Below, piece by piece: positions 1-31,503 of a DNA stretch of 39,673 nt (positions are counted from its first letter, which is position 1; every line of letters starts with the position of its first letter). The stretch covers positions 1 to 39,673 of the IMG/VR virus record IMGVR_UViG_3300036818_000079; one strand, 5' to 3'. The translations under genes and the position numbers were made by a program. Origin of the DNA: a virus. The notes beneath the pieces are model-generated. The model searched no databases, was not told the origin of the DNA, and was given only the letters and a program-made list of their open reading frames with translations.

Positions 1-160
1 CGGAGGTCATGGAGCCGTCGTGGCCGACGACGACGAAGTCCGCGTCGGTGGCGCCGGTGGGCTGTGCCCCGTCGTAGATGGGGACCCCGGCCAGGGCGGC
101 CGCGGCGGTGTAGGCGGCGAGCAGCGCGGTCACAGCGTCAGCGAACCGTGTGGTGCTCAC
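1..160 (-). CDS. Tail-completion/head-tail joining-like protein, N-terminal part
   Basis: Partial gene cut by the window start; 53 codons are visible. The GTG start sits in a GTGA overlap with the stop of the head-tail connector gene upstream, so the two are probably translationally coupled. The N-terminus reads MSTTRFADAVTALLAAY, then a short Ala-rich helix, a GVPIYDG stretch and DADFVVVGHDGS. This helix followed by a 'P(I/V)YDG' strand is seen in small tail-completion or minor tail proteins encoded just after the connector in siphophage head-tail modules. The role is inferred from position and this pattern; the rest of the protein is not visible. Confidence 0.6.
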   Translation of the reverse strand, partial: MSTTRFADAVTALLAAYTAAAALAGVPIYDGAQPTGATDADFVVVGHDGSMTS

Positions 161-1041
161 AGGTACGCCTCGGACATGAACGGGATGCCGCCCTGGCTGC
201 CGTTGAGCAGCTCGGCGGCCATGTTCGGGACCGCGAACCCGAACCCTGGCACGGTCACCATCTCGCCGCCGCCCATCGGCAGCGCAGCCGGGCCGCGCTG
301 GCTCGTCCACAGGTGCTGGAGGACGATCCGGGCGAAGCTGTTGAACGCGGCCGGGACCGCGGTGCCCCATCCGGCGACGTAGGTGACGTTGACCTGTGGC
401 AGCCAGGAGAAAAACGGCCCGTAGAACGGCAGGCCCAGCTGGCGCCGGATCAGCCCGGCGTTGACGTCGAGGTCGAGGCCGGCGGAGATGTCGATGGCGC
501 CGCCGGACGCGGAGATGATCGAGGTGACGGAGACCAGGGGCCGCTGCCGGACCGGGATGACCGTCTGGTCTGCCATCATCTCGGATCGTTCGGTGACGGA
601 CCGGTTGACGAGGGGGCCGCCGGTGGCGCGTTCGAGGTTGCTCTCGATCGTCGCGATGTAGCTTTGTATCTCTGTGTCGAAGGTGGTTGTGGCCTGCAGG
701 ATGTTCAGGGTGTCCTTGGCGTCCTGGAGTGGCAGCACGGACGTCTCGAACGGGTCGAAGACGTCGAATTCGCCGAAGGAGACCCCGGCGCCGGTGCCGG
801 TCGCTGTCCACGCGTACTGGTAGTGGCCGGTGGTGGCCAGGTCGGTGATGGGGATGTCCTGGTGGTAATTGCCTGTCGAGTCGAGCGTGGGGGTGGCGTA
901 GGTGCCGGTGGTCAGCTGGGTGCCGTCGGCCTGGGCCAGTTTGGCGGTCAGGGTGAGCGTCCCGGCGTTGACCGGTGTGCCAGCGGTGTCCCGGACGGCG
1001 GTCGACAGGCGGATGGGCTGCCCGAGCGGGTAGCGGCTCAA
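157..1041 (-). CDS. Head-tail connector (gp6-like) with N-terminal Ig-like domain
   Basis: A 294-residue protein. The C-terminal half (from about residue 105, LPLQDAKDTLNI, then a long helix IQSYIATIESNLERATGG, and VTYVAGWGTAVPAAFNSFARIVLQHLW) matches the helical head-tail connector (gp6/adaptor) family, which joins the portal to the tail-completion proteins. The first 100 residues form a separate beta-rich domain with alternating Thr/Gly strands (YPLGQPIRLSTAVRDTAGTPV), like the immunoglobulin-like modules fused to connectors in some actinophages. The start is a TTG overlapping the previous stop (TTGA), supported by AGGAGG 6 nt upstream. The connector assignment is fairly secure; the function of the N-terminal domain is inference. 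Confidence 0.75.
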   Translation of the reverse strand: MSRYPLGQPIRLSTAVRDTAGTPVNAGTLTLTAKLAQADGTQLTTGTYATPTLDSTGNYHQDIPITDLATTGHYQYAWTATGTGAGVSFGEFDVFDPFETSVLPLQDAKDTLNILQATTTFDTEIQSYIATIESNLERATGGPLVNRSVTERSEMMADQTVIPVRQRPLVSVTSIISASGGAIDISAGLDLDVNAGLIRRQLGLPFYGPFFSWLPQVNVTYVAGWGTAVPAAFNSFARIVLQHLWTSQRGPAALPMGGGEMVTVPGFGFAVPNMAAELLNGSQGGIPFMSEAYL

Positions 1042-4000
1042 TCCGGTCCTCCTGTCCGCTGGTCGGCTGCCGTGAGGGTGGCCTGTGCTGCCGTGCTGCC
1101 CGTCAGGGTGCCGACGGTGAACGCCAGGAGCTGCCCGGCGGCCGCGGTCAGGGTGCCGGTGCCGGCGAGTACCGCGGGCGCCCTGGCGGCGGTGGGTGCG
1201 GTCAGGGTGCCGAGCGCGGTCAGCGCCGCGGCGGCGGAGGTCCGGGCGGCCGTGGTGAGGGCTGCGCTGGCGGTGAGGGTGGTGGTGCCGGAGGTGACCG
1301 CGGCCGCGGTCGCGGGCAGCGACCCGGCCGCCGTGAGGGGTGCGCTGGCGGGGGTGACCCCGCCGCCGCTGCCGGTGATCGCCCCGGCCGCGGTCAGGCT
1401 GGTGGTGGCCCGCTGCCCGGGTGTGGTGGTGAGCTGCCCGGCGGCGGCTAGTGTGGTGGCGGCCTGCCCGGCGGCCCCGGCGGTGACCGATCCGGTGCCT
1501 GCCATGGTGGCGGGGGCGGTCACGCCAGCGCCTGCGGTCAGGTGGGCGGCGCCTGGCAGGGAGCTGCCCTGGACGGTGCCGCCCGTGATCGAGGCTGCGG
1601 CGCCGAGGACGGCGCCGGCCTGCTGGGTGACCCCGGTGGCCACCGACCCGGTTCCGGTCAGGGTGACGGCCGCGCCCTGGGCCGCGCCGCCTGTGAGCGT
1701 CCCAGTCGCGGTCAGGGGCGCCCCGGCGCGCAGTGTGACCGGGACGGTGAGGTTTCCCGTGCCATCCAGGGCTGCGCCGCCGCCCTGGACTTCGGTGCTG
1801 CTGAGCGATCCGGCCCCGGCCAGTGTGGCCCCGGCCTGCCCGGCAGGCCCGGCGGACAGTGACGCACGGCCAGCCACGGTGATGGCACCGGCGGCCAGGG
1901 CCGCCCCGGCGGCCAGTGAGGCGGCCCCGCCCAGCGTCTTTCCTGCCTGGACGGCCGTGGCGGGTGCGTCCACCGCCCCGGCGCCGCGCGGCGCCGCGCC
2001 AGCCTGCTGGACGGCGCCGGCGGCCAGCGTCCCGGCCGCGGTCAGGGTGACAGCGGCCGGCTGCAGCCCGGGGGCGGTGCCGAGCGATCCGGCCGCGGCC
2101 AGCATCACGGCCGTCTGCTGCGCTGGGCCGGCCGGAATTGAGCCTGCCCCGGTTAGTGCCGTCCCGGCCCGCTGGGCCGACGGGGCCGCGACCGAACCCG
2201 CAGCGTCCAGGGCCGTCCCGGCCCGCTGTACCGCCGGTGGTGCGCTCACCGACCCGGCCCCGGTCAGGCCCGCTGCCCCGGCGATGCCGCCGCCCGCGGC
2301 CAGCGACCCGGCCCCGGCCAGGTCCGCCGACGGCGTGGGGAACACGTCAGTCTGGCTGACCTGCGCGATGCCGGCGACCGCATCCCAGCCCTGGAACGCG
2401 ACCGTGATGGACGAGCCGTTATCGGTGAACGCTAGCCGGCCGTACTGGCGGCATTCCCCGCCGGAGTTGCTGTAATGCTGGTCGAACGTGGTCTGCATCA
2501 GGCCGCCGCCGACGTTGAGCAGCGGGGCCGCGCAGTACACCGGGAAACCGCCCCAGCTGTTGTTCGCGCCCACAGTGCAGCCGACCAGGTGCGAGTCGCC
2601 GTGCCACAGCACCACGTTCTTGACCAGGTGCCTGTTCGCCGCGATGTAGCTGATGATGGCCTGGCGTTCGGTGTCGTAGGACCACCATTTGTCCGGGCCG
2701 TTGGTGATCGTCGCTGTGCCCATCCAGGCGACGTCGGAGATGATCACTTTCAGCGGCTCGGGCTGGATCAGCTGGTTTTCCAGCCAGGCGAGCTGGGTGG
2801 CGCCCAGCATCGTCTTGGTGCCGTTGTCGGTGTTGCCCCCGGGCGACCGGTCGGTGTTCCGGATGTCGATCATGATGAACCGGACCCGGCCTGATACCCA
2901 CGCCTGGTACAGGCCATGCGGTGGGCTGTTGACCGTATCGCCCAGGACGCCCATCGGGAAAACGGACTGGGCCGCCGCGATGTTCGTCGCGGTGTAGGTG
3001 TTGTCGGAATCGCCGTTGTCCGGGCCGGCCTCGTGGTCGGAGCGGCAGTAGTAGCCCCACGCGGTGGCCACCATGGACGACAGCGACGGGATGAAGCCGA
3101 TCTGGGTTTCGTAGACGCCGACCTGGGTGGCCAGCACGGTGCTGGTGGTGCCGGAGTAGTCGAAGTCTCCGGTGAAGACGTTCAGGTCGGCGCCGTAGCT
3201 GATCCAGTCGCTGATGGCCGCGGCGGTCGCCGGGGGGGTCACCGTGTCGCCCTGGGCGATGCAGGAGACCAGGGCGACGGTGTAGTTCGCGGGGGTCCCG
3301 GCGGTCGCCAGGGTCTTGCATGCCCCGATGGGGCCGATCAGCGATTCCATCCCGCCGGACGGGGTGTTGGCGACCTGCACGTAGTAGCGGGTGAAGGCGG
3401 ACAGTCCGGTCAGGGTGTACCGGAGGTACCCGGATGCGTCCGGGGTCTGCGCTGTGATGTAGGACGGTGAGGTCATCGACGGCGACGTGGAGTACGCCAG
3501 CCTGCAGGAGGTGGCCCCGGAGGTTTTCGCGTACACCTGGAAGCCGGCGGCGGCGGGGGCGCCCGCGACGAGCTGGGAGACGGTGCCGGGTACCGGGCCG
3601 CCCGGCGCGGCGACCGAGATGAGCAGCGCGCCGCCGTCGGCGGAGGCGGCCAGCGTCCCGGACAGGGCGCCGGTGGCCCCGGCGGTGGTCTGGGTCATCG
3701 TGGCCGCGTACACGTCCACGTTGGCGTGGCCCGCGCCGCCGCCGGAGTCAGCCTGGGCCAGGGCGGTGGTGAACCCGGACGGCGGCGTGATGGCCGGTAC
3801 GGCGGCGCCGGCGCCCAGGCGGCCGGTGGCCAGCCAGATCAGCAGGTCGCCGTTCTGGCCGGTGGTGATCCCGGGGGCGGTCAGGGTCGTCCCGACCGAG
3901 CCCAGGCACGTCCCGGAGCCGGACAGTGACGGGTCGAACGGTGAGCTGGTGTCAGCCCCGGATACCGCGATGCCGCCGATCACCACGATGAACGAGCCGG

Positions 4001-5030
4001 TCATCGTGACGGTGAACGTGGCGCCTTCGCTGCCGTCGCTGACCCGCCACAGGAGCTGCTGGGCGATATTCGACCCGTTCGCCACTGTGGCGGCGGTGAA
4101 CCCGGTGCAGGCGAACGTGTCGGTGGCGTTGACCGAGCCGGACCACAGCAGGATCAGCAGCCCCGCGGGGGTGCCTGACCCGTTCCAGCCGGGATTGTTT
4201 ACCGCCTGGCTGGACACGTTGGCGGCGCCGGAGCCGGCGCTGCTGGTCCCGGTGACCGCCAGGGCAGATACCGGGGCTGCGGCCAGCGACCCGGCCCCGG
4301 TCAGGGTGGCGCCGGGCGGCCCGCCGCCGGCTGCGATGGCCGATCCGGTGCCGGTCAGGGTGGCGCCGCCGGAGACGGCGCTCCCGGCCGCCTTGTAGCT
4401 GGCGATCGAGCAGTCGGCGTTGGTGGAACTGGCCGGCGTCCAGGTGACCGAGTACAGCGACGCCGACCCCACGCCGATCTGGTATGCGCCGTCCACGCCG
4501 TTGACGGAGAACGCGTGGTCGTGCCAGGTGCCGCCGGAATCGGGGTCGGATGTGGCCAGGGTGAAGGTGCCGGCGTTGGCCGAGCAGGCCACCGCCGAGA
4601 CCACCAGGTCCCCGGCCGAGCTGGTCGCTGTGGTCGCGGCGGTGATCGCACCGGAAGACGCGTTGTGTGTGCTGGCGGACTGGTCAAGTACGGGGGCGCC
4701 GGAGACTATCTGGAGCCCGGAGTATTCCGCGACCCCGATCTCGCGGTTCGAGGATGCCGACATGGTGACACTGATGGTGTCGCCGGACAGCAGCGCCGTG
4801 GCCAGGTATGCGGAGCAGATATGAGCGGCGGAGTTGGACGATCCGCTGATGACATCCAGGTTCCAGGTGTTGCCCCGGCTGTCGCTGATCGCGGTGGGGT
4901 GCACGCCGCCCGCGCACCGGATGTACATGACCAGGACGTTGCCCTGGGTGGTGTTCACGCCCAGGGTGACGGTCGGGTTGCCGGTCGCCGACGGCACGGT
5001 GCCGGCGATCTGGACGAAGGCGACCGCCAC
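1038..5030 (-). CDS. Giant modular virion protein with PhoD-like phosphatase domain and Ala/Gly repeats
   Basis: A 1330-residue protein with a GTG start behind GGGAGG. Approximate domains: two related beta-sandwich modules (1-215 and 260-475), separated by three repeat-like strings (LTGTGSA, LTGAGSL); a fibronectin-like domain (480-575); and a metallophosphoesterase of PhoD type (580-890). PhoD signatures are visible in order: SCIAQGD, FTGDFDYSG (about 615-623), SDHE (about 663) and WHGDSH (about 808), corresponding to the metal-binding GD, DDHE and GDxH motifs. From about 897 to the end run about 22 degenerate repeats of about 17 residues around a L-T-G/A-x-G-S/T-L core. No signal peptide or membrane segment is seen. 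It lies between a small fibre-like gene and the connector, so a head or neck fibre or decoration is likely. The substrate is unknown. Confidence 0.7.
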   Translation of the reverse strand: MAVAFVQIAGTVPSATGNPTVTLGVNTTQGNVLVMYIRCAGGVHPTAISDSRGNTWNLDVISGSSNSAAHICSAYLATALLSGDTISVTMSASSNREIGVAEYSGLQIVSGAPVLDQSASTHNASSGAITAATTATSSAGDLVVSAVACSANAGTFTLATSDPDSGGTWHDHAFSVNGVDGAYQIGVGSASLYSVTWTPASSTNADCSIASYKAAGSAVSGGATLTGTGSAIAAGGGPPGATLTGAGSLAAAPVSALAVTGTSSAGSGAANVSSQAVNNPGWNGSGTPAGLLILLWSGSVNATDTFACTGFTAATVANGSNIAQQLLWRVSDGSEGATFTVTMTGSFIVVIGGIAVSGADTSSPFDPSLSGSGTCLGSVGTTLTAPGITTGQNGDLLIWLATGRLGAGAAVPAITPPSGFTTALAQADSGGGAGHANVDVYAATMTQTTAGATGALSGTLAASADGGALLISVAAPGGPVPGTVSQLVAGAPAAAGFQVYAKTSGATSCRLAYSTSPSMTSPSYITAQTPDASGYLRYTLTGLSAFTRYYVQVANTPSGGMESLIGPIGACKTLATAGTPANYTVALVSCIAQGDTVTPPATAAAISDWISYGADLNVFTGDFDYSGTTSTVLATQVGVYETQIGFIPSLSSMVATAWGYYCRSDHEAGPDNGDSDNTYTATNIAAAQSVFPMGVLGDTVNSPPHGLYQAWVSGRVRFIMIDIRNTDRSPGGNTDNGTKTMLGATQLAWLENQLIQPEPLKVIISDVAWMGTATITNGPDKWWSYDTERQAIISYIAANRHLVKNVVLWHGDSHLVGCTVGANNSWGGFPVYCAAPLLNVGGGLMQTTFDQHYSNSGGECRQYGRLAFTDNGSSITVAFQGWDAVAGIAQVSQTDVFPTPSADLAGAGSLAAGGGIAGAAGLTGAGSVSAPPAVQRAGTALDAAGSVAAPSAQRAGTALTGAGSIPAGPAQQTAVMLAAAGSLGTAPGLQPAAVTLTAAGTLAAGAVQQAGAAPRGAGAVDAPATAVQAGKTLGGAASLAAGAALAAGAITVAGRASLSAGPAGQAGATLAGAGSLSSTEVQGGGAALDGTGNLTVPVTLRAGAPLTATGTLTGGAAQGAAVTLTGTGSVATGVTQQAGAVLGAAASITGGTVQGSSLPGAAHLTAGAGVTAPATMAGTGSVTAGAAGQAATTLAAAGQLTTTPGQRATTSLTAAGAITGSGGGVTPASAPLTAAGSLPATAAAVTSGTTTLTASAALTTAARTSAAAALTALGTLTAPTAARAPAVLAGTGTLTAAAGQLLAFTVGTLTGSTAAQATLTAADQRTGGPD
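1050..2335 (-). repeat. Degenerate ~50-bp coding repeats (about 22 units)
   Basis: The 3' third of the giant structural gene consists of about 22 imperfect units of roughly 48-54 bp. Each encodes about 17 residues with a core such as LTGAGSL, LDAAGSV or LAAAGSL followed by a short Pro/Gly linker and often QxAG. The units are diverged at DNA level but keep the Gly and aliphatic positions, which suggests selection on a repetitive fold (beta-solenoid or extended fibre) and not recent slippage. Confidence 0.7.
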
Positions 5031-5079: not shown

Positions 5080-5520
5080 TCAGTACCCGCCTGCCGCGAT
5101 GGCGCCGATCGCGACCTGGAACGTGTTGCCGTTCGCCACCGCGACCGGCTGGCCGTTCCAGTTGCCGTACCACACCCGGGCCGCCGCGCTGTCGGGGATT
5201 TCCAGTGAGACGATCGACCAGGCACCCCCGGACCCGTTGGTCCAGGTGATCGCGGTGAACGGGATGAGGACGTCCGCGCCGCCGGTCGACGTGGTGGGGG
5301 TGCCGGAGAACGCGGTGCCGCCGGAGGTGTACCCGGTGCCGGTCAGCTCAGTGCCCGACGCGGACCCGGTCGACGCGGTGGAGGTCAGCTTCAGCTTCAT
5401 CGCCCCGGTGCCCAGCGCGGTCAGCTGCGTGCCGGGGACACCGGCGGCGCCGACGGGCAGGTTGGCGTTCAGCATCAGCGAGGACCGCGTCTGGTCGATC
5501 GCCGTCTGGTGGTTAGTCAT
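5080..5520 (-). CDS. Small phage fibre-like structural protein
   Basis: A 146-residue protein with an ATG start. It shows the pattern of the small beta-rich 'phage tail fibre protein' family often found in actinophage head modules. The N-terminus lists a copy-like helix (TNHQTAIDQTRSSLMLNANL), then GSASGTELTGTGYTSGG, an ITWTNGSGG strand, WYGNWNG, and a C-terminal NTFQVAIGAIAAGGY strand. The ELTGxGY segment also resembles the repeats of the giant protein encoded next. It probably forms a small beta-sandwich on the virion surface. Despite the family name, its position between capsid and connector genes suggests a head location. No catalytic motif is seen. Confidence 0.6.
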   Translation of the reverse strand: MTNHQTAIDQTRSSLMLNANLPVGAAGVPGTQLTALGTGAMKLKLTSTASTGSASGTELTGTGYTSGGTAFSGTPTTSTGGADVLIPFTAITWTNGSGGAWSIVSLEIPDSAAARVWYGNWNGQPVAVANGNTFQVAIGAIAAGGY

Positions 5521-5524
5521 GACC

Positions 5525-5953
5525 TCACCTGGCTGTGGTGATCGTGGTGCCCGGCAGCACCGTGATGATCAGCGGGCGGCAGACCGTGCAGCCGTCCACG
5601 TCCTTGTGGCAGTGGCCGCCGGGGCACGGCGGCGGGGTGGTGCCCTCGTACAGGGGGTGGCTGCCGTCGCTCAGCGGGTGGGACGCGTCGGCGATCGCGC
5701 CTTTCCACACCCGGCAGACGTCCGGCTCGGGACACGCCGCACCGTCATGGGCGGCCGGGCAGGCGTTCGCTGCCGCGCCGTGATCATGATCTTCGGTGCA
5801 GCACCCTGACCCCGGCGCGCAGCGGACAGCCGCGTCGATGTTCTCGTGAGTGCAGCCGGGCTGATGCGCCCCGGCGGCGGCAACATAACCCGGCGGGCAG
5901 GTGCACTCCAGGAACACCTGCGTCATGCAGCCGGGGCACTGGACTTGGAGCAT
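5525..5953 (-). CDS. Cysteine-rich protein of unknown function
   Basis: A 142-residue protein with about 16 cysteines in pairs: CPGC, CTC, GCC, CPEPDVC, CPGGHC and CTVC, plus many histidines (HDHG, GGHCH). The spacing suggests several zinc sites or disulfides; I recognise no family. The start ATG has a GAGGTGAGG ribosome binding site. It sits in the head/accessory part of the late operon, followed 4 nt later by the fibre-like gene. Coding potential looks good (strong GC at third positions), but the function is unknown. Confidence 0.6.
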   Translation of the reverse strand: MLQVQCPGCMTQVFLECTCPPGYVAAAGAHQPGCTHENIDAAVRCAPGSGCCTEDHDHGAAANACPAAHDGAACPEPDVCRVWKGAIADASHPLSDGSHPLYEGTTPPPCPGGHCHKDVDGCTVCRPLIITVLPGTTITTAR

Positions 5954-5963
5954 GCCTCACCTC

Positions 5964-5987
5964 AGATCAGCATCGTTTGTTTTCATG
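5964..5987. repeat. Copy of the 3' end of the glycosyltransferase gene
   Basis: These 24 bp match positions 7014-7036 except for one extra T. On the minus strand the shared block reads ATGAAAACA, then (A)ACGATGCTGATCT. At 7014-7036 it encodes the last residues (MKTTMLI) of the glycosyltransferase. Here it lies between genes, just upstream of the ribosome binding site of the Cys-rich gene. Confidence 0.7.
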
Positions 5988-6011
5988 CCGCGCCGCGCCC
6001 GGCAGGTGCAT

Positions 6012-6215
6012 CTACTTCGCGTCGCCCGTATCTGCGGCCGCATCCGGGTCCGGGGTACCGCCGGGGTCGTGGACGGGGCCGTTGACCTGATCGCCGGCGA
6101 ACTGCGACCTGTCCGTCCCGAACCTGCCCTGCCCCAGCAGCTTCCGCAGCCGCTCGGCCAGGTCCTGATGGGTGCCCTCGGGGGCGTCACCCTCAGCGTG
6201 CACATGCCACCTCAT
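6012..6215 (-). CDS. Small hydrophilic protein, unknown function
   Basis: A 67-residue protein starting at an ATG that overlaps the methyltransferase stop (ATGA). The sequence (MRWHVHAEGDAPEGTHQDLAE, then RLRKLLGQGRFG and a DPGGTPDPDAAAD tail) has one amphipathic helix and an acidic Pro/Gly tail. A competing frame from 6205 is Arg/Ser-rich and looks like a shadow. No family is recognised. Confidence 0.5.
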   Translation of the reverse strand: MRWHVHAEGDAPEGTHQDLAERLRKLLGQGRFGTDRSQFAGDQVNGPVHDPGGTPDPDAAADTGDAK

Positions 6216-6739
6216 CGCGCCTTCTTCCGTACGACCGCCAGCCCGTAGCGGTAGGTGATGTCCTCAACACTGCTGTCCTTCGTGAGCAGCGTCAGCAGCC
6301 CCTGAGCCGCCGTCAGCATCGACGAGCCGTACTCCGGCCAGATCCCGGGCAGCCCGACCATCCAGTCCTCGACGACGTAAAACCCGCCGGGGCTGACGAG
6401 CGGCCACAGCAGGTCAAATGTCGCCCGGGTCGCCGCCCCGTCGTGGGAGGCGTCGTCCACAACCAGGTCCCACTGCTCCGCGTGCAGGGTCAGGAGCGCC
6501 GGAAGGGCCTGGTCATCCTGGGCGGCCACGATCCGGCCGGTGCCTTCCGGCCAGCGGGACGACGGGTCCGCGTCCACCCCGGTGAGCTGCCCGGCGGGGA
6601 ACAGCGCCTGGAACAAGTCCAGGCCATCACCGCGGTACACGCCGACCTCACACACCCGCGCGGCCGGGCCGAGCTCAGCCGCGATCCGCAGGTACACCGG
6701 GAGGTACCCGTGGGTGACCTTATCGGTCGCGAACCTCAC
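6212..6739 (-). CDS. SAM-dependent methyltransferase (class I)
   Basis: A 175-residue Rossmann-fold methyltransferase. Motif I is CEVGVYRGDGL (30-40), the acidic loop after strand 2 is GVDAD (54-58), VVDDASHDG (93-101) is the motif IV region and PGGFYVVEDW (117-126) the motif VI region. The DASHDG and VVEDW signatures are those of the Methyltransf_24/TylF and cephalosporin-hydroxylase-like group, which modify sugars or small molecules. The start is GTG, 4 nt after the previous stop. It neighbours a glycosyltransferase gene, so modification of a virion glycan is a reasonable inference; the substrate cannot be read from sequence. Confidence 0.8.
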   Translation of the reverse strand: MRFATDKVTHGYLPVYLRIAAELGPAARVCEVGVYRGDGLDLFQALFPAGQLTGVDADPSSRWPEGTGRIVAAQDDQALPALLTLHAEQWDLVVDDASHDGAATRATFDLLWPLVSPGGFYVVEDWMVGLPGIWPEYGSSMLTAAQGLLTLLTKDSSVEDITYRYGLAVVRKKAR

Positions 6740-6745
6740 CCGGGA

Positions 6746-7003
6746 TCAGGACCGGCCGCGCTCATTGGCCCGCGCCTGCTTCTGCGCGGCCTTCTCTTCC
6801 TCCCGGGCGTCGTCGACAGCCGCCTGCGCTGCCAGGTCAGCCTCCGCACGCCGCTTCGCCTGCTTGGCCTGCTCCGCCTCCAGCTCCTCCCGCGTCTGGG
6901 TGGCGTGCTCGGCGGCCTGCGCCGACTGCTGAGCCTGCCCGGCGGCAGCGTCCTTCTCCGCCTGCGTGACAGCTTCCCTGCGTACCTTGCCCGCGTCGCT
7001 CAC
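6746..7003 (-). CDS. Coiled-coil protein, unknown function
   Basis: An 85-residue protein that is almost entirely a charged Ala/Glu/Gln/Lys/Arg helix (MSDAGKVRREAVTQAEKDAA, then EEEKAAQKQARANERGRS). It is predicted to be one long coiled coil. The GTG start follows an AGGAG overlapping the glycosyltransferase stop. Low sequence complexity prevents family assignment. It lies between the glycosyltransferase and methyltransferase genes. Confidence 0.55.
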   Translation of the reverse strand: MSDAGKVRREAVTQAEKDAAAGQAQQSAQAAEHATQTREELEAEQAKQAKRRAEADLAAQAAVDDAREEEKAAQKQARANERGRS

Positions 7004-7011
7004 AGCGTCTC

Positions 7012-7680
7012 CTAGATCAGCATCGTTGTTTTCATGTGCCCGACGTGGACACCCGTTGCTACGTGGACCGGGATCCCGGCGGCGGCGCAGCGCAGGCAGA
7101 ACGTCATGTCCTCACCCACCAGCGCCGACCCGATCACGCTCTCCCGGAACCACGGCGCCGCCCGGTCCCCGGACGCCTCCGCCACACGCCCGAGCGCGTC
7201 CCGGTGCATCAGCAGGAACGCCGCCCCGGTCGCGCCGACAGGCACGCACGCGTCCTCCGCCCAGGTCCTGTACCGGGCGAACCCCACCTGGCCGCCGCCG
7301 GGCTCCTGGACGAGCTCGTACATCGTCGGCTGCTTCTCCCCTGTCGTCCCGTCCTGGGAGTAGCACAGGGCGCCCAGGACGGGACGCGCCACCGGGTCGG
7401 CCGCCTCCGTCAGGCGGTCCACATCGGCGGGACCGAACACCATGTCCGTGTCGGCCATCAGCAGCCACGGCGCCCGGCACTCCTCCAGGAACCGGCGGAC
7501 CAGCAGGTTCCTGGCCTCGGAAATGTTCGGGCCGGACGGCGCGGCCAGGAACACATCCACCCGGGCACCGCCGGGCTTGCGGGCCACGGCCAGCAGCGAT
7601 GCGAGGAACTCCGCGCGCACCTGGCCGCCGTGCACGTAGCCGACCGCGACATGCTGCGGCGGGGTGCGGCCGTGCGGCAT
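7012..7680 (-). CDS. GT-A-like glycosyltransferase
   Basis: A 222-residue protein. After a short beta strand (VAVGYVHGG) come the conserved NISEARNLLVRRFLE helix (52-66) and WLLMADTDMVF (72-82), whose D77-x-D79 is the metal/nucleotide-sugar-binding DxD motif. A VPVGATGAAFLLMHRDAL acceptor-side segment and a C-terminal GVHVGHMK follow. This arrangement is typical of small phage and bacterial glycosyltransferases of GT-A fold (family 2-like). The gene sits in the virion gene cluster beside a methyltransferase, so it probably glycosylates a capsid or tail protein or masks a host surface glycan. The donor and acceptor are unknown. Confidence 0.75.
   Translation of the reverse strand: MPHGRTPPQHVAVGYVHGGQVRAEFLASLLAVARKPGGARVDVFLAAPSGPNISEARNLLVRRFLEECRAPWLLMADTDMVFGPADVDRLTEAADPVARPVLGALCYSQDGTTGEKQPTMYELVQEPGGGQVGFARYRTWAEDACVPVGATGAAFLLMHRDALGRVAEASGDRAAPWFRESVIGSALVGEDMTFCLRCAAAGIPVHVATGVHVGHMKTTMLI
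7014..7036. repeat. 23-bp block also present at 5964-5987
   Basis: This is the 3' end of the glycosyltransferase coding sequence and its stop codon. It is the intact partner of the intergenic copy at 5964-5987, which carries one additional T. Confidence 0.7.
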
Positions 7681-7683
7681 CGC

Positions 7684-8094
7684 CTAGCTGGTGCCGTATG
7701 TCGGCAGGCCGTCCTGCGTCGTGCCGGGATAGTCGCCCATCCCCTGGATGGGGGTCTCCATGTCCGGGCCCGGGCCGATGTCAGCGTTCCCGTAGTCAGC
7801 GAACCCGGCGGTCACGTTCACTGCCCCAGCGCCAGCCGGGGACATCAGCAGCGCCTCCGCCTCGGCCTGCCGTGGCCCGCGCGGGTACAGCACGCCCGAC
7901 CCCGTCAGCGCATTAGCCGCGTCAAACGCACCGCTGATCCCCGTGACGTCCTGCGGCGCGGCGATGTCGTACGGCGCCGTGCCCGGACCGGCCGGGGTCA
8001 CGCCCGAGTACCCGGCGGCATCCCCCGGACTGTCCGCAGGCGTTGCCGGATCGGGCGCGCCGGCCGGGTCCAGGGACTGGAAAAACTCAGACAT
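7684..8094 (-). CDS. Pro/Gly/Asp-rich protein, unknown function
   Basis: A 136-residue acidic, low-complexity protein (SEFFQSLDPAGAPDPATPAD and so on) with a slightly more ordered centre (VTGISGAFDAANALTGSGVLYPRGPRQAEAEALL). I place the start at the ATG of MSEFF, 7 nt behind AGGAG, overlapping the previous stop by 8 nt; a GTG one codon earlier is possible. It resembles the protein encoded at 8315-8815 in composition and in a PMxxP/GxxDY-type C-terminus. Both may be disordered virion linkers. No family is recognised. Confidence 0.5.
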   Translation of the reverse strand: MSEFFQSLDPAGAPDPATPADSPGDAAGYSGVTPAGPGTAPYDIAAPQDVTGISGAFDAANALTGSGVLYPRGPRQAEAEALLMSPAGAGAVNVTAGFADYGNADIGPGPDMETPIQGMGDYPGTTQDGLPTYGTS

Positions 8095-8302
8095 CACTGC
8101 GCTCCTTCGCGTGCTTACGGCAGTAGCCGTTCATGTGGTGCCGCGCGGGACGACGGCAGCGGGGCTCATGGCAGTTCAGGTGATGCCACAGCACCGCGAC
8201 GATGCTGCCCTTCAGGATGAACGAGCCGGAGCCGGAGTAGAAGAGGTAGACCAGCCCGGAGGCGCTGTCCAGGCCGAGCCAGTGAAGCAGCAAGTGCGCC
8301 AC
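8087..8302 (-). CDS. Small membrane protein with C-terminal Cys/His motif
   Basis: A 71-residue protein. The N-terminal 40 residues (AHLLLHWLGLDSASGLVYLFYSG, then SFILKGSIVAVLWHHL) form one or two hydrophobic segments. The tail reads NCHEPRCRRPARHHMNGYCRKH, a C-x4-C-x9-C-x2-H pattern that could bind zinc. Similar short proteins (hydrophobic segment, then Cys/His tail) occur in the late operons of other actinophages. The function is unknown. It overlaps the next gene by 8 nt. Confidence 0.6.
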   Translation of the reverse strand: MAHLLLHWLGLDSASGLVYLFYSGSGSFILKGSIVAVLWHHLNCHEPRCRRPARHHMNGYCRKHAKERSDV

Positions 8303-8314
8303 CCGCCCGGCTCG

Positions 8315-8815
8315 TTACGCAGGGTTGGTCTCGGGGAAGAACGGCCCCTCGAACGGCGGGTTATCCGCCGCGTTCGTGCCCACCGCGGGATTCATCGGCG
8401 AGTGCGGCAGATCCATCAGGTCCCCGATGGTGGATCCCGCGCCGACGTCGCCCTGGAACTCCTGCCAGCGGCCGGCCGCGTTCGCCACCGCGCCGGCCAC
8501 CGTAGCGGACACATCATCGCGGCCGCCCGCGTCGTCATCGCCCATCGCGTTGATAGGCGACAGCGGGCCCGGGTAGTACGGCGCGTCCGAGGGGCCCGCG
8601 TTCACGTCATGAGCGGATGGCGACTCCGTCGTGCCCAGGCCCGTGACCCCGGACATCACGTCTGCGGCCGGGTCGGACAGCGGGCCGATGTCCGCCGCGT
8701 AGCCGGGCGGTTCAGGGGACATGCCCGCGCCCCCGTACGGCACAGGAGCCGGCCCCGGGTTCGGTGCAGCGGGCATCTGCGGCGCATCCGCCGGCGACCC
8801 ATGGATCTCAGTCAT
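8315..8815 (-). CDS. Pro-rich acidic protein, unknown function
   Basis: A 166-residue protein with an ATG start overlapping the previous stop by one base (TGATG). It is rich in Pro, Gly, Ala and Asp, with one short predicted helix (DVSATVAGAVANAAGRWQEF) and the tail NPPFEGPFFPETNPA. It is probably largely disordered and resembles the 7684-8094 product in composition. I assign no family. Confidence 0.5.
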   Translation of the reverse strand: MTEIHGSPADAPQMPAAPNPGPAPVPYGGAGMSPEPPGYAADIGPLSDPAADVMSGVTGLGTTESPSAHDVNAGPSDAPYYPGPLSPINAMGDDDAGGRDDVSATVAGAVANAAGRWQEFQGDVGAGSTIGDLMDLPHSPMNPAVGTNAADNPPFEGPFFPETNPA

Positions 8816-9616: not shown

Positions 9617-10297
9617 TCAGCCTGCTTTCCCCGGCGGCAGTTCCAGCCGCCGGTGCTTTGCCACGTACCTGGCCGCGGCCCTGATGATCTCCGGGTCGTC
9701 CAGGAGAAACCCGATGCCCATATTGCAGCGATGGCACAGCAGCCCGCGGACCTGGCCCGTCACATGATCGTGATCAATGTGCCAGCGTTCCCCGCGACCG
9801 CCGGGCCTGTCTGTCTTGCACACTGCGCACTGGTTGCCCTGATGCTTGATGAGCGCATCCCAGCCGGCTTGCGTCAGCCCGTACAGCCGCAGCGTGCGGG
9901 CGCGCTCGCGGACCTGAGCGTCCGGGCGCGGGTCCTTCCGGCAGCCTGGGCAGACGGGCTTCCCGACCAGGGTACTGACCTCCGCGCCGCACGCGCAGCG
10001 ACGAGGGCCCAGCGCGGAGTTCCGCTCGATCTTCCGCTGCTCAGATGCCGCCATCGTGCACCGGCGCGAGCAGTAGACCTGCGGGTTACCGGCGGTGCGC
10101 GACCGGGTGAACTTAGCGCCGCACTGCGGGCAGATCATCACCTCGGGTCCATGCACCCGCGGGACGTACCTGGATCTCATGTATTCGAGATGGCATTCCT
10201 TGCAGTCCGACCGGACGCCGCCAGCGCCCGCGATCATCCTGTGAAACTCAGTCAGCGGCTTCGTCTTATGGCAATGCGAGCATGTCTTTTCGTCCAT
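9617..10297 (-). CDS. Recombination endonuclease VII-like HNH nuclease
   Basis: A 226-residue protein. Residues 139-215 match the endonuclease VII (T4 gp49-like) family: YGLTQAGWDALIKHQGNQC, C157-x2-C160, the HIDHDH active-site strand (173-178), then C188-x2-C191-N and a helical tail. The N-terminal 120 residues carry five further CxxC-type pairs (C6/C9, C32/C35, C56/C59, C101/C103, C116/C119), so several zinc ribbons precede the nuclease. The family cuts branched DNA or acts as a free-standing homing endonuclease. Insertion between the capsid gene and the next structural gene, with repeats nearby, favours the homing type; a junction-resolving role in packaging remains possible. Confidence 0.85.
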   Translation of the reverse strand: MDEKTCSHCHKTKPLTEFHRMIAGAGGVRSDCKECHLEYMRSRYVPRVHGPEVMICPQCGAKFTRSRTAGNPQVYCSRRCTMAASEQRKIERNSALGPRRCACGAEVSTLVGKPVCPGCRKDPRPDAQVRERARTLRLYGLTQAGWDALIKHQGNQCAVCKTDRPGGRGERWHIDHDHVTGQVRGLLCHRCNMGIGFLLDDPEIIRAAARYVAKHRRLELPPGKAG

Positions 10298-23830: not shown

Positions 23831-25981
23831 TCACGGTGTGTCACCGCCGGGTGGTTCGGTGAGCAGCCAGCGGGCCGTCCGCTTCTCCCCCGCCATCCGC
23901 ACCAATCCCTCGGTCCGCAGACGCTCGAGGTAGGTGCGGGCTGTCCATTTGGTCACCTCGAGCACGCGGGCGACCTCGCTGATGGTGGTCCCGGCGGACA
24001 GCAGCCCGAGCAGCTTCCCGCGGGCCTCGTCCGGGATCTCGGTGGCCTCGCCGACCTGGCGCCACCGCTCGGCGGCGTGGGCCAGCTGGGCCTCGTGCGG
24101 GATGTCGGGCACGGGCTCGGCGGAGGCCTCGGCGAGCAGCCGGCGGGTTGCGGCGTTGCGTCTCCCCTGCTCGACCCAGCGGCGGCGCAGCGGATCGCTC
24201 TCGTCCAGGGTGCTCAAGTGGTCCTCCGCTTCGCGGTCGTAGGCGTCGAGGCTGGCCCGCTCCTCGATCTTCAGGGCGTTGGCCAGCGTCTCGGCGGTCT
24301 CGCCATCCGCTTCCACGGTGCCGTCGCGGACGGCTAGGGCGAGGGCATGGAGCGGGTTGTGCGGATCCGCGCCACGGGGAGCAGACGGGGACACCGGTTC
24401 CGGTTCCGGCCCGGCACCGATCTTCCGCCGGCCGTGCGCCCACCGGGTGAACGGCTCGTCGCTCAGAAGCCGCGCATAGGAATCACCCAGGAAACTCTCA
24501 AGTTCAGGTTCAAGGTTAGGCTGGTCCATGGCCCGTTCCTCGGCCATCCTCCGCAGGTCACCTGGCTCTTTCAGCAGGAATGTGCGGCCCGTCCGGACGC
24601 TCCCGCCGAGCTCGGCGATTGCCCAGACGCCCTTATGGCCGTCGCCGTAGCTGGCCATGTCGGGCATCTCCAGGCCCAGATCCCCGGCGGCGTGCATCAT
24701 CTCGCCGCGGCGGGACACCGCGCCGATACAGAACACGTCGACCAGGGCGCGGACATCGCCGCCGCCGATCCACTCGGCGGTGCCACGCTGCCCGGCGATC
24801 ACCGGGGCGACCGCTTCGGAACCGCCCTTGCTGTAGATGGTCTTCAGTGCCTCACGGGCCGCGGGGATGGAGGCCAGGGCGTCGATCTCGTCGCCGATGA
24901 ACAGGATCAGGGGATGCCCGGCCGACGGCTGGAACACCGCGGTGTCCCGGGGCTGCTGGGAACGCCATTCGATGGTCCGCTCCAGCATCCGCAGGATCTT
25001 CACGGCCCGGGTCGCCTGCTGGCGGGTGATCGCGGTCAGGTGGCAGGCGACATCCCATTGCCTGTCCTCGATGCCCTTGGACAGGTTGAGGTTGACGACC
25101 AGCACGTCCGGTGCTTTCGTGGCGCGCTCGCGCAGGTTGTTGATCAGGACGGTTTTGCCTGCCCGGCTGGTCGCCACGATGAGGATCCGCTTGGCGCCGT
25201 CCTGATCCCATACGGTCAGGGTGAGCGGGGTGCCGGTCTCAGGGTCCTGGCCGATGATGAACGGCTCCCGGCAGGTGCACAGGCCGGACAGGTCGATCTC
25301 CGGGTCCGGGTCAAGCGCCGGGTGGATGATCGGCTTGGCCCATGGGTCGGTGCGGCGGATGGAGATCTCCACGCGGCCAGCGAGCCTGTGCCGTTTCACC
25401 TGCACCCGCGACACAGGCAGGCCTTCGTCCTCGGCGATCCGCTCGGCGACGTCGCCGCCGGCGATCTGGGAGGCCCGCTTCCCGGTGCCCTTGACGTCGA
25501 TGATCTTCCGCTCGCCCAGCCGGGTCACCTCGTGGTGCAGCAGGTGGGAGCCTTTCAGACCGTACCGGTGGGCGGTGGCCAGCCAGTCTTCCGACGCGAG
25601 CCGCTTGCCTCTGGCCTCCAGGACAGCCGGGTGGCTGCGGGCCCACCGCCAGCCTGTGAACGTCAGGGCCGCCCATGCCCCGGTGAGCGGGAAGTACCAG
25701 CCAGGGCCGGCGAGCGGGCCGAAGCGGGCGGCCAGCGCCGACCAGGCTCCCGCGGCCAGCAGCCAGCCGGCGCCCCCGCGGGCGCCCTTGCCGTAGACGG
25801 CACCCGCGGCGGCGAGCGTCCCGAGGCCGATGTCGAGCCAGGGGATGCCGGTGGCGTGCATGATCTCGGCGGCCGTCCAGACGCCCGCACCGGCCAGCGG
25901 CACCGCGCGGGCCGCTTTCTCGGCAGGCTTGCGCCGCAGCTGCGGCGGGGCAGCTGCCGGGGCGTCCTGGACTTCGGTCAC
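23831..25981 (-). CDS. FtsK/SpoIIIE-type DNA translocase (TraB/TraSA-like)
   Basis: A 716-residue protein. Hydrophobic segments lie near 33-115 (VPLAGAGVWTAAEIMHAT, GWLLAAGAWSALAARFGPLA, PLTGAWAALTFTGW). The FtsK-like ATPase has Walker A ATSRAGKTV (270-278) and Walker B LILFIGDEID (358-366), followed by VIAGQRGTAEWIGGGDVRAL. The C-terminus (about 640-705; ISEVARVLEVTKWTARTYLE, then GLVRMAGEKRTARWLL) is a winged helix, placed like the gamma domain that recognises short repeats in FtsK and TraB. In AICEs such proteins move double-stranded DNA between hyphae. GTG start with GAGAGGA upstream. Its presence beside complete head genes is unusual. Confidence 0.85.
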   Translation of the reverse strand: MTEVQDAPAAAPPQLRRKPAEKAARAVPLAGAGVWTAAEIMHATGIPWLDIGLGTLAAAGAVYGKGARGGAGWLLAAGAWSALAARFGPLAGPGWYFPLTGAWAALTFTGWRWARSHPAVLEARGKRLASEDWLATAHRYGLKGSHLLHHEVTRLGERKIIDVKGTGKRASQIAGGDVAERIAEDEGLPVSRVQVKRHRLAGRVEISIRRTDPWAKPIIHPALDPDPEIDLSGLCTCREPFIIGQDPETGTPLTLTVWDQDGAKRILIVATSRAGKTVLINNLRERATKAPDVLVVNLNLSKGIEDRQWDVACHLTAITRQQATRAVKILRMLERTIEWRSQQPRDTAVFQPSAGHPLILFIGDEIDALASIPAAREALKTIYSKGGSEAVAPVIAGQRGTAEWIGGGDVRALVDVFCIGAVSRRGEMMHAAGDLGLEMPDMASYGDGHKGVWAIAELGGSVRTGRTFLLKEPGDLRRMAEERAMDQPNLEPELESFLGDSYARLLSDEPFTRWAHGRRKIGAGPEPEPVSPSAPRGADPHNPLHALALAVRDGTVEADGETAETLANALKIEERASLDAYDREAEDHLSTLDESDPLRRRWVEQGRRNAATRRLLAEASAEPVPDIPHEAQLAHAAERWRQVGEATEIPDEARGKLLGLLSAGTTISEVARVLEVTKWTARTYLERLRTEGLVRMAGEKRTARWLLTEPPGGDTP

Positions 25982-28429: not shown

Positions 28430-28675
28430 TTACCTGCGCTTCGCGGTGCCGTAGGTGTAGCCCGGGGTGCGCGTGGCGGTCTTCTTCTTGGGCTTGATGA
28501 CGGCCAGCACCACGCAGGCGATGACGAAGGCGCCCGCGGCGGTGCCGATCAGCATCGCGTGCTGCGTGCCGGGCGTGGCGGTGTGGTAGGCCTTCAGGGT
28601 CGTCACCCAGCCGACGGCGCCGATAGCGGCGAGGATCAGGATGCCGTTGATGACGGCGCGGAAGAACGTGCGCAT
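28430..28675 (-). CDS. Small two-helix membrane protein
   Basis: An 81-residue protein with two transmembrane helices (VINGILILAAIGAVGWVTTL and AMLIGTAAGAFVIACVVLAVI) and a basic tail (KPKKKTATRTPGYTYGTAKRR). The ATG overlaps the WhiB gene stop (TAATG). A Spd-like or holin-like role cannot be told apart from sequence. Confidence 0.6.
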   Translation of the reverse strand: MRTFFRAVINGILILAAIGAVGWVTTLKAYHTATPGTQHAMLIGTAAGAFVIACVVLAVIKPKKKTATRTPGYTYGTAKRR

Positions 28676-28995
28676 TACGCTGCCTGCTCTCGTGGTTGCG
28701 GGATTGACGCTGGGATGTTCCGGCGGTAGAGCCGGCGGCGTTCCCGTTCGGACATGCCGCCCCAGATGCCGAACCGCTCCTCATGCTCGAGCGCGTACTC
28801 CAGGCACTGCGCGCGCACGTCGCAGGCCGCGCAGACCCGTTTGGCTTCGCGGGTCGAGCCGCCCTTTTCCGGGAAGAAAACCTCCGGATCTGTCTGCGCG
28901 CACAGGGCCAGGTCGGTCCAGTCGGGAGGAGTCAGGCCGATGGGGTCCGGCTCGGCGTGCTCGCCGTACATGCGGGAGATGCTGTAAGGGTTCAC
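28675..28995 (-). CDS. WhiB-family iron-sulfur transcription factor
   Basis: A 106-residue protein. The four cysteines C32, C55, C58 and C64 (LCAQTD, VCAACDVRAQC) are the WhiB [4Fe-4S] ligands; FGIWGGMSERERRRL (75-89) is the conserved G-I/V-W-G-G turn with the basic C-terminal segment. WhiB proteins bind sigma factor region 4 and redirect host transcription; phage copies can repress host whiB genes or block superinfection, as shown for mycobacteriophage TM4. GTG start behind AGGAGG in a GTGA overlap. In this element it could control the leftward transfer and late genes. Confidence 0.92.
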   Translation of the reverse strand: MNPYSISRMYGEHAEPDPIGLTPPDWTDLALCAQTDPEVFFPEKGGSTREAKRVCAACDVRAQCLEYALEHEERFGIWGGMSERERRRLYRRNIPASIPQPREQAA

Positions 28996-29902: not shown

Positions 29903-29936
29903 ATGTACGATCGGTACGTACAAAACCGATGTACGG
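29903..29936. promoter_or_regulatory. Second group of GTAC motifs before gntR
   Basis: TGTACGATCGGTACGTACA (29904-29922), then a further TGTACGG. ATCGGT (29910-29915) and ACCGAT (29925-29930) form an inverted repeat around GTACGTAC-type sequence. The sites reach to within a few bases of the GntR start at 29939, so binding here would block transcription or translation of gntR. Confidence 0.5.
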
Positions 29937-29938
29937 AG

Positions 29939-30706
29939 GTGGGTCCCGTCAGCGAGCAAGCGCTATGGGAAGACGTAGCCGCAGGACTGCGCACGTCGAT
30001 CAGCGGCGGCGAGTACAAGCCCGGGGACACACTGCCGACCGAGGCCGAGCTGGCAGACCGCTACCGGGTCAGCCGCGACACGGTGCGCCGCGCACTCGGC
30101 AAGCTCACCCAGCAGGGCCTGCTCACGCCAGGCCGGGGCAGGCTCGGCAGGCAGGTCCGCACGAGCCGGCCGCTCACCTTCTACGCCAGCCGCTCCGAGT
30201 CCACCGCGCGGGTGGCCGAGCGCCACACCAGGGGGGTGGACGCCTGGGTCGCCGACGCCGCCGACCAGGACCGCGAGGCCGGGCAGCTCATCTCCGTGGC
30301 CCTGGACCAGGCCGCGCCCGAGGTGGCGTCCAGGCTGGAGATCCCCGACGGTGAGCTCGTGGTCGTGCGGCGCAGGCTCCGGACCATCGACGCGGCACCG
30401 CACAACCTCAACGACACGTACTACCCGCGGGAGATCGCGGAAGGCACGCCGATCATGCACCCGGCCGACGTCGTCCAGGGCACGATCGCGCTGATGCGGG
30501 AGCTCGGGTATCAGCAGGTCCAGTACCGCGACGACCTCGAGACCCGCATGCCCGCCCCGGAGGAAGCCGAGCGCCTGCAGATCCCGCCCGGCGTACCCGT
30601 CCTGGTCCAGTACCGCACCGGCTACACGGCCGAGAGGCCCGTGAAGGTCACCATCACCATCTGGCCGGGCGACCGGACCACCCTGGTCTACGAGGTCCCC
30701 GCGTGA
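29939..30706 (+). CDS. GntR-family regulator with UTRA domain
   Basis: A 255-residue protein. The winged helix (about 8-78) contains ALWEDVAAGLRTSISGGEYK, PGDTLPTEAELADRYRVSRD and TVRRALGKLTQQGLL. The C-terminal UTRA effector domain (about 90-250) contains LEIPDGELVVVRRRLRTID, LNDTYYPREIAEGTPI, PPGVPVLVQYRTGYT. GntR/UTRA (HutC subfamily) repressors such as KorSA control pSAM2-type conjugative elements. I take the GTG at 29939; an in-frame ATG at 29903 would place operator sequence inside the gene. Its stop overlaps the GNAT start (TGATG). Confidence 0.88.
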   Translation: MGPVSEQALWEDVAAGLRTSISGGEYKPGDTLPTEAELADRYRVSRDTVRRALGKLTQQGLLTPGRGRLGRQVRTSRPLTFYASRSESTARVAERHTRGVDAWVADAADQDREAGQLISVALDQAAPEVASRLEIPDGELVVVRRRLRTIDAAPHNLNDTYYPREIAEGTPIMHPADVVQGTIALMRELGYQQVQYRDDLETRMPAPEEAERLQIPPGVPVLVQYRTGYTAERPVKVTITIWPGDRTTLVYEVPA

Positions 30707-31503
30707 TGACCATCCGCCGGGCGGTCCCCGGCGATCTGCGCACCGTGACGTCGATCCTGCACTCGGTCGCCCGATGGCTGCACCAGCAGGGCTACGACCA
30801 GTGGCCCGACGGATCGCCGTCCCTCGGGCCGATCAGGGTCAGCGGCCAGATCGACCGCGGCGAGTTCTGGATCGTCAGCGAGGACCGCGACCCGGTCGCG
30901 GTCATCGCGCTGTCCCGGTTCGGGGACATCGACTTCTGGTCGCCCGCCGAGCTGGCCGAACCCGCGGTCTACGTCAGCAAGGCAGCGGTGCTCCGGCGCG
31001 CGGCCGGCCGGGGGCTCGGCGCGATGCTGCTGCGATGGGCTGTCGACCGCGCAGCACAGGGGGGCATTGACCAGGTGCGCCTGGACGTGTGGAAAACCAA
31101 CACCGGGCTGCAGGGCTACTACCGCCGTCAGGGATGGGCCTATCTGCGCACCGTCGACGCCGAGGACCGGAACAGCGGGGCGCTCTTCTGCCGCGCCGCC
31201 ACGCTGGACCCTGAGGCGCGCGGAACGTTCCGGCGGCTGACCGCGCCGGCCGCCCTCACCGGTCCCGTCACGGCCGGGATGCCGGTCATCGTCCCCACCG
31301 ACGCTGGCCCCGTGGCCGCGGTCTGCACGCAGGTCACCAGGGACGGATCAGCCGGCCTCCTGGACGGCGGATGGGAGAGCGGGGGCGGCGACCCTCCGGT
31401 GCTGTACCGGGTAGAGCACGCCGGGCGGACGTGGCTGGCCCGCGAGGCGTGGCCAGATCCCCGCCAGTGCGAGGTAAGCGACAGGAGAGTCACGCGGTGC
31501 TAG
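30706..31503 (+). CDS. GNAT acetyltransferase with C-terminal extension
   Basis: A 265-residue protein. The GNAT domain (1-160) shows IRRAVPGDLRTVTSILHSVA at the start, VYVSKAAVLRRAAGRGLGAM with the acetyl-CoA-binding R-x2-G-x-G motif, and VRLDVWKTNTGLQGYYRRQG as motif B. About 95 further residues (TAGMPVIVPTDAGPVAAVCT, PPVLYRVEHAGRTWLAREAW) form a small beta-rich domain I do not recognise. It is translationally coupled to gntR. GntR plus GNAT pairs occur in actinobacterial mobile elements; the substrate is unknown. Confidence 0.8.
   Translation: MTIRRAVPGDLRTVTSILHSVARWLHQQGYDQWPDGSPSLGPIRVSGQIDRGEFWIVSEDRDPVAVIALSRFGDIDFWSPAELAEPAVYVSKAAVLRRAAGRGLGAMLLRWAVDRAAQGGIDQVRLDVWKTNTGLQGYYRRQGWAYLRTVDAEDRNSGALFCRAATLDPEARGTFRRLTAPAALTGPVTAGMPVIVPTDAGPVAAVCTQVTRDGSAGLLDGGWESGGGDPPVLYRVEHAGRTWLAREAWPDPRQCEVSDRRVTRC

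Follow-up and report, generated by a model that had tools for sequence, protein, structure and literature searches.

A PhoD-like phosphoesterase as a probable exchangeable head of a modular phage protein

The window, that is, the whole stretch of DNA analysed here (39.7 kb; 39,673 nt, positions 1-39,673 of IMG/VR virus record IMGVR_UViG_3300036818_000079), carries a gene for a modular protein with a PhoD phosphatase domain. As a whole, the results were best explained by an adsorption protein of the virion that bears a phosphoesterase as its exchangeable head, a reading that we hold with fairly good confidence. Comparison of the locus with its relatives indicated that in other phages the catalytic domain is replaced by different surface-polymer enzymes at this position. 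PhoD in phage genomes is already known and is named in PHROGs. What is new is an enzyme-swapping slot with a common tail, in which PhoD is one of the heads. That the protein is in the virion, be it on the head, neck or tail, is an inference, and so are its enzymatic activity and its substrate. The features of the gene and its neighbours are listed in Table 1.

Table 1. Features of the PhoD gene and adjacent genes in the window (aa, residues of the PhoD protein).
Feature	Position (nt)	Strand	Evidence
Complete gene, modular PhoD protein, 1330 aa	1038..5030	minus	ORF, Pfam and PHROG evidence
N-terminal module 1, aa 1-218, all-beta, kin to module 2	4377..5030	minus	Iterated profile E 4e-29; low-confidence model
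Linker, two LTGxGSxxA-type repeat copies, aa 219-252	4275..4376	minus	Sequence
N-terminal module 2, aa 253-476	3603..4274	minus	Also in other slot proteins and beside PhoD in other phages
FnIII / purple-acid-phosphatase-N-like domain, aa ~480-575	3306..3593	minus	Weak Pfam PF16656 E 0.05; confident model strands; FnIII PDB matches
PhoD catalytic domain, aa ~583-890	2361..3284	minus	Pfam, 2yeq profile, AlphaFold, Foldseek
Cys590 = BsPhoD Fe3+ ligand Cys180	3261..3263	minus	Alignment
GD622xxY625 = Asp207 and Tyr210	3156..3170	minus	Alignment; invariant in 24 sequences
S664-D665-H-E667: Asp665 = Asp266, Ser664 in place of Asp265	3030..3041	minus	Alignment
GD812SH814 = Asp436 and GDxH histidine	2589..2600	minus	Alignment; invariant in 24 sequences
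C-terminal repeat arm, 18-aa period, ~20 copies, aa ~898-1297	1140..2339	minus	Repeat analysis
Conserved slot C-terminal tail FTVGxLTA...TGGP, aa ~1299-1330	1041..1136	minus	HMM from 20 PhoD-less slot proteins, E 1.1e-5
GGAGG Shine-Dalgarno of adaptor within last codons of PhoD gene	1048..1052	minus	Sequence
Head-tail adaptor	157..1041	minus	phrog_442 E 1.4e-17; overlaps PhoD gene by 4 bases
146-aa fibre-like protein, upstream of PhoD gene	5080..5520	minus	Kept beside PhoD in L003 and L004
142-aa Cys-rich protein	5525..5953	minus	Kept in L003 and L004

The PhoD gene started with GTG, and GGGAGG was found 5' of the start. The dN/dS of the PhoD core against four relatives was 0.27-0.37. This meant that the frame was real, constrained coding sequence and that the core was under purifying selection. 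The gene lay between the major capsid protein (MCP) gene and the head-tail adaptor. A previous sequence-only reading had described a 1330-residue protein with PhoD, encoded between a fibre-like gene and the head-tail connector. Both the open reading frame with its PhoD identity and the gene order, with the 146-aa gene upstream and the phrog_442 adaptor downstream, were confirmed. The 146-aa protein had no family match. Kinship with the 'capsid fiber protein' of Nostoc phage YongM was rejected because profile comparison showed no relation, and neither protein matched the PDB. No match of the adaptor was found in isolated phages, and MCP relatives in isolated phages were at most ~39% identical among the matches listed.

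The identity of the PhoD domain was far beyond chance motif matching. The motif order GD...DHE...GDSH on which the sequence-only reading had relied was present as TGD622FDY625, SD665HE667 and HGD812SH814, and three profile comparisons agreed with it. The protein matched Pfam PF09423 with an E value of 8.6e-9 (35.4 bits, above the cut-off of 27). The family phrog_13624 'hydrolase' of Streptomyces phages (EGole etc.) matched aa 335-894, a range that takes in some of module 2, with an E value of 1.1e-66, and the PhoD family profile matched PDB 2yeq with an E value of 6.5e-12. Structure prediction also gave a PhoD/PAP fold. The AlphaFold model of aa 475-897 had a pLDDT of 89.5 and a pTM of 0.92, and in Foldseek its top match was 2yeq (E 1.4e-23), with purple acid phytases next.

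The regions around the PhoD domain were modular. Iterated profiles showed that aa 19-168 and aa 273-472 belonged to one module family (E 4e-29 and 2e-66). The N-terminal model was all-beta but weak (mean pLDDT 59.7; aa ~290-475 mostly 60-86), and no fold match was obtained for it, the best E value being 0.16 with a model too weak. Two beta-sandwich modules had been proposed. Two related all-beta modules were supported, and the sandwich fold was only likely at this model quality. The repeats had an 18-aa period. Strict copies of the motif numbered 20 in aa 904-1294, and the linker near aa 222-255 contained two more that were similar, which together accounted for the 'about 22' Ala/Gly repeats counted earlier. 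In the PhoD protein of relative L006, the repeat arm at aa ~1010-1200 appeared, by eye, to carry an inserted lectin-like domain between different repeats.

The position of the gene was surveyed by a scan with the window MCP, which found 64 loci, including one from the same virus. The conserved gene order in the MCP relatives was MCP, small genes, glycosyltransferase, one or more variable genes and, where in range, the adaptor. PhoD occupied this slot only in the window phage and in L003 among the 64 MCP loci. A Pfam scan of 20 slot proteins showed other enzymes at the same place. Apiosidase-like domains were found four times (L128, L146, L147, L162), GH26 once (L131), GDSL in L150 and, below the cut-off, in L152, and a polysaccharide deacetylase once (L163). 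Pectate-lyase-like beta helices (L132, L149) and the K1-lyase C-terminal domain (L153, L154) were each found twice. In these last four loci the helix or lyase gene was a second gene, behind a slot gene bearing the C-terminal tail. One protein had Mtd_N, the start of Mtd-type receptor-binding proteins (L151). Six of the 20 proteins had no Pfam match, and L126 had a sub-threshold match only. The loci of L131, L132, L150, L152, L162 and L163 included no recognised adaptor.

The slot proteins shared the C-terminus FTVGxLTA...LTA...TGGP. The TGGP ending was invariant because its codons carry the Shine-Dalgarno of the adaptor. It was therefore rejected as protein conservation and left out of the tail HMM, which was built from 20 PhoD-less slot proteins and run on 362 proteins. 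This HMM matched the PhoD proteins of the window (E 1.1e-5) and L003 (E 1.1e-6), and the next best match was 0.0019. Module 2 was also present in PhoD-less slot proteins, and one of them, L145 (254 aa), was little more than the module and the tail.

The PhoD core was 70-78% identical between the window and L003-L006. These proteins differed in their N-terminal modules, in the kind of repeat and in length (1261-1603 aa). MCP identity to the window was 77% for L003 and 34% for L006; the MCP could barely be detected in L005, and L004 gave no match. Since the cores were alike and the capsid proteins, modules and repeats were not, the core moves between phages as a module. The block of the 142-aa gene, the 146-aa gene, PhoD and the adaptor was kept in the window, L003 and L004. 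In the phage of L006, a single 1473-aa ORF (L046, 1027-5448) matched both the window portal and MCP, which suggested a portal-to-capsid fusion or an assembly artefact.

The PhoD domain is joined to binding modules and a repeat arm, in a slot that holds sugar-cutting enzymes in sister phages. The gene thus probably serves to cut phosphate-containing polymers at the host surface, and not to scavenge phosphate. Its product would be a virion protein built of modules, probably a fibre or appendage for adsorption. The N-terminal beta modules and FnIII would bind or position the protein, PhoD would be the exchangeable catalytic head, and the 18-residue repeat arm and short C-terminal tail would form the scaffold common to slot proteins. 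On contact, PhoD may hydrolyse phosphodiester or phosphomonoester bonds of host surface polymers such as wall teichoic acid or another phosphate-bearing glycan. The polymer layer would then be loosened or trimmed, and the phage would reach the membrane.

A narrower version, in which the virion protein is specific for wall teichoic acid degradation, was judged possible but somewhat doubtful. Teichoic acids are the presumed target of B. subtilis PhoD (PMC4223295), Thermobifida fusca, the host of phage P1312, has polyglycerolphosphate lipoteichoic acid (PMC4569894), and tail GDPD domains were proposed to act on teichoic acid (PMC10194240). However, the other slot enzymes indicated varied surface glycans, and PhoD relatives were also found in phages of Nostoc, Anabaena and Dolichospermum. 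Such Gram-negative-type cells are not known to have teichoic acid. These cyanophage relatives meant that the PhoD family was not tied to teichoic acid, which is nevertheless plausible for an actinobacterial host. The sequence-only reading had proposed a virion-borne depolymerase acting on teichoic-acid-like polymers. The metal site, with one calcium ligand changed, and a virion-borne, depolymerase-like role were supported, and teichoic acid is a candidate substrate. The decisive context, the exchange of enzymes in the slot, was not available to that reading.

The metal site was assigned by alignment to BsPhoD, with ligands and mutants taken from PMC4223295. The Fe3+ site of the family (Cys or Asp, Asp, Tyr, His) was complete as Cys590, Asp622, Tyr625 and His814. 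The calcium ligands of BsPhoD are Asp265, Asp266, Asn271, Asn272 and Asp436. Asp665, Asp812 and the DN pair (671-672) were present, and Ser664 stood at the Asp265 position. The alanine mutant of Asp265 in BsPhoD was inactive (PMC4223295). Serine was found at this position in the window protein and every close relative, and further out Ser and Asp alternated. In L012, L013 and L015, Asn was found at the Asp266 position. With one calcium ligand different in the sequence, activity of the window PhoD may not be taken as guaranteed. The replacement of a ligand essential in BsPhoD would fit an inactive PhoD fold retained only for receptor binding. We consider this unlikely, since the Cys, GDxxY and GDxH ligands were invariant across 24 diverse phage and prophage-like sequences, the core was under purifying selection, and the bacterial-genome homologues L041 and L044 also had Ser at the alternating position. 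The ligands were conserved save at the Asp265 position, so the loss in all close homologues that the sequence-only reading had named as counting against its claim was not seen.

The PhoD genes of other phages were often found near structural or lysis genes. In Microbacterium phage Hortus1 the gene lay between MCP and a head-to-tail stopper, in Thermobifida phage P1312 it came directly after a tail protein gene, and in L019 it followed tape-measure and tail genes. The prophage-like Actinomadura locus L041 and the Chloroflexi MAG L042 had the same tape-measure and tail placement, judged by gene length and order only. The 78 neighbours of diverse phage PhoD genes were mostly tape-measure families, and tail fibre, tail assembly, endolysin and head fibre were also found. 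Two counter-examples were seen. In Microbacterium phage A3Wally, PhoD stood beside nucleotide metabolism genes and was not clearly in the structural module, and in the EGole group (Streptomyces) it stood among tRNAs and small genes downstream of the terminase. Close to one another in the A3Wally locus (L191, 1-8878) were genes for a PhoD-like phosphoesterase, a 5' nucleotidase, two metallophosphoesterases and a purple acid phosphatase. Placement of the protein in the head was not adopted; the gene order of Hortus1 fits it, but most relatives with an assignable context had tail-tip or fibre positions.

Published particle data were available for two phages. In LC-MS/MS of YongM, the PhoD homologue (5775..7658) had a score of 1132 with 35% coverage and ranked 7 of 32, in a concentrated phage preparation (PMC8875764), the purity of which is not established here. 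It was listed near lysozyme, tail and capsid fibre proteins, and DNA polymerase and thymidylate kinase had a score of 19; the authors counted the homologue with DNA anabolism (PMC8875764). In P1312, no coverage value was given for the PhoD homologue, and 24 other proteins were detected (PMC4569894). The particle evidence was thus one case for and one silent.

Another explanation is a phosphorus-acquisition AMG, in which phage PhoD would release phosphate that the infected cell can use. Bacteria use PhoD under phosphate starvation (PMC4223295), and soil-phage phoD was classed as an AMG with activity measured for PhoD22 (Nat Commun 2024, PMC10987575). On the other side, tail, capsid and virion go unmentioned in the main text of the latter paper. 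An AMG would be expected outside the structural module. By gene position, the window gene was inside it, at the MCP/adaptor site, overlapping the start of the adaptor. Its PhoD domain was also joined to repeats, binding modules and the slot tail that glycosidase-type proteins share. Judged by eye, no signal-like segment was seen at the N-terminus, unlike the extracytoplasmic PhoD family (PMC4223295). Because of the operon position, the fusion and the absent signal-like N-terminus, the AMG explanation was considered quite improbable. It is very improbable that the enzyme protects the phage or blocks superinfection by degrading wall-located nucleic acid, the role put forward for its P1312 homologue (PMC4569894), since the closest fold was PhoD/PAP and not the nuclease-type metallophosphatases, and the slot fits surface polymers.

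Several other genes of the window were observed. Most MCP relatives shared with the window a glycosyltransferase-like gene (7012-7680, minus) located between MCP and the slot. Its product might add sugars to virion proteins, for example to the repeats rich in Ala, Gly, Ser and Thr; for mycobacteriophage Maravista, phage glycosyltransferases were suggested to glycosylate the capsid (PMC11256854). An endonuclease VII-type gene (9617-10297, minus) directly after MCP was found in only some relatives (L147, L186) and was a probable mobile insertion. A gene looking like WhiB by eye (28675-28995, minus), a GntR/UTRA regulator with an acetyltransferase alongside (29903-31503, plus) and a 716-aa protein with a weak AAA match (23831-25981, minus) were also present, and a longer record (L045) had an integrase-like gene, by eye, at 7529-8797. 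Together these suggested a temperate actinobacterial phage. Among 347 genomes from the order to which the L041 genome (Actinomadura) belongs, the search met distant matches only, and therefore no host was found.

These results raised the idea that PhoD recurs on phage adsorption proteins as a class of catalytic head that has gone unrecognised, exchanged in a dedicated slot for glycosidases, lyases, esterases and deacetylases, and that many soil-phage phoD 'AMGs' are virion depolymerase-type genes. We put this forward tentatively, at somewhat less than even chances. Soil-phage phoD genes counted as phosphorus acquisition may partly be of the virion type. No paper treating phage PhoD as a virion depolymerase was found among open-licence papers, and no relevant one on PhoD in tail fibres. 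If the idea is true, a metallophosphatase is added to the known catalytic heads, and wall polymers that contain phosphate and cannot be cut by glycosidase depolymerases become accessible. Virome phoD should then not be scored as phosphorus-cycle metabolism without a check of gene neighbourhood and domain fusion. The slot, with its common tail and interchangeable heads, offers a natural catalogue of enzymes that act on the surface polymers of uncultured hosts, which are probably actinobacterial.

The window protein was compared with known systems. The phosphoesterase gp38 of Hortus1 is likewise a PhoD homologue at an MCP/stopper position; however, it has 642 aa, 28% identity and no repeat arm. 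For the phosphodiesterase ORF22 of P1312, the preceding tail protein carries a module-2-like stretch, but unlike in the window, CBM_4_9 is C-terminal. The EGole-type proteins of phrog_13624 have ~650 aa, lack both the repeat arm and the slot tail, and are not encoded between MCP and adaptor. Nostoc phage YongM also has a PhoD homologue, with 29% identity to the window and its gene beside the 'capsid fiber protein', but it is a distant cyanobacterial myovirus in which no shared slot parts were found. Phage tail GDPD enzymes also bring a phosphodiesterase domain to the phage, in a tail module, and belong to an unrelated fold and family (PF03009). In contrast to B. subtilis PhoD (2yeq, PF09423), the window protein has Ser for Asp265 and phage modules and repeats fused on, and its modelled core is without the C-terminal helix. 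The two nevertheless share the fold (TMq 0.75), with an FnIII-like N-domain and a metallophosphatase core, the Cys/Asp/Tyr/His iron-site ligands and the equivalents of Asp266 and Asp436.
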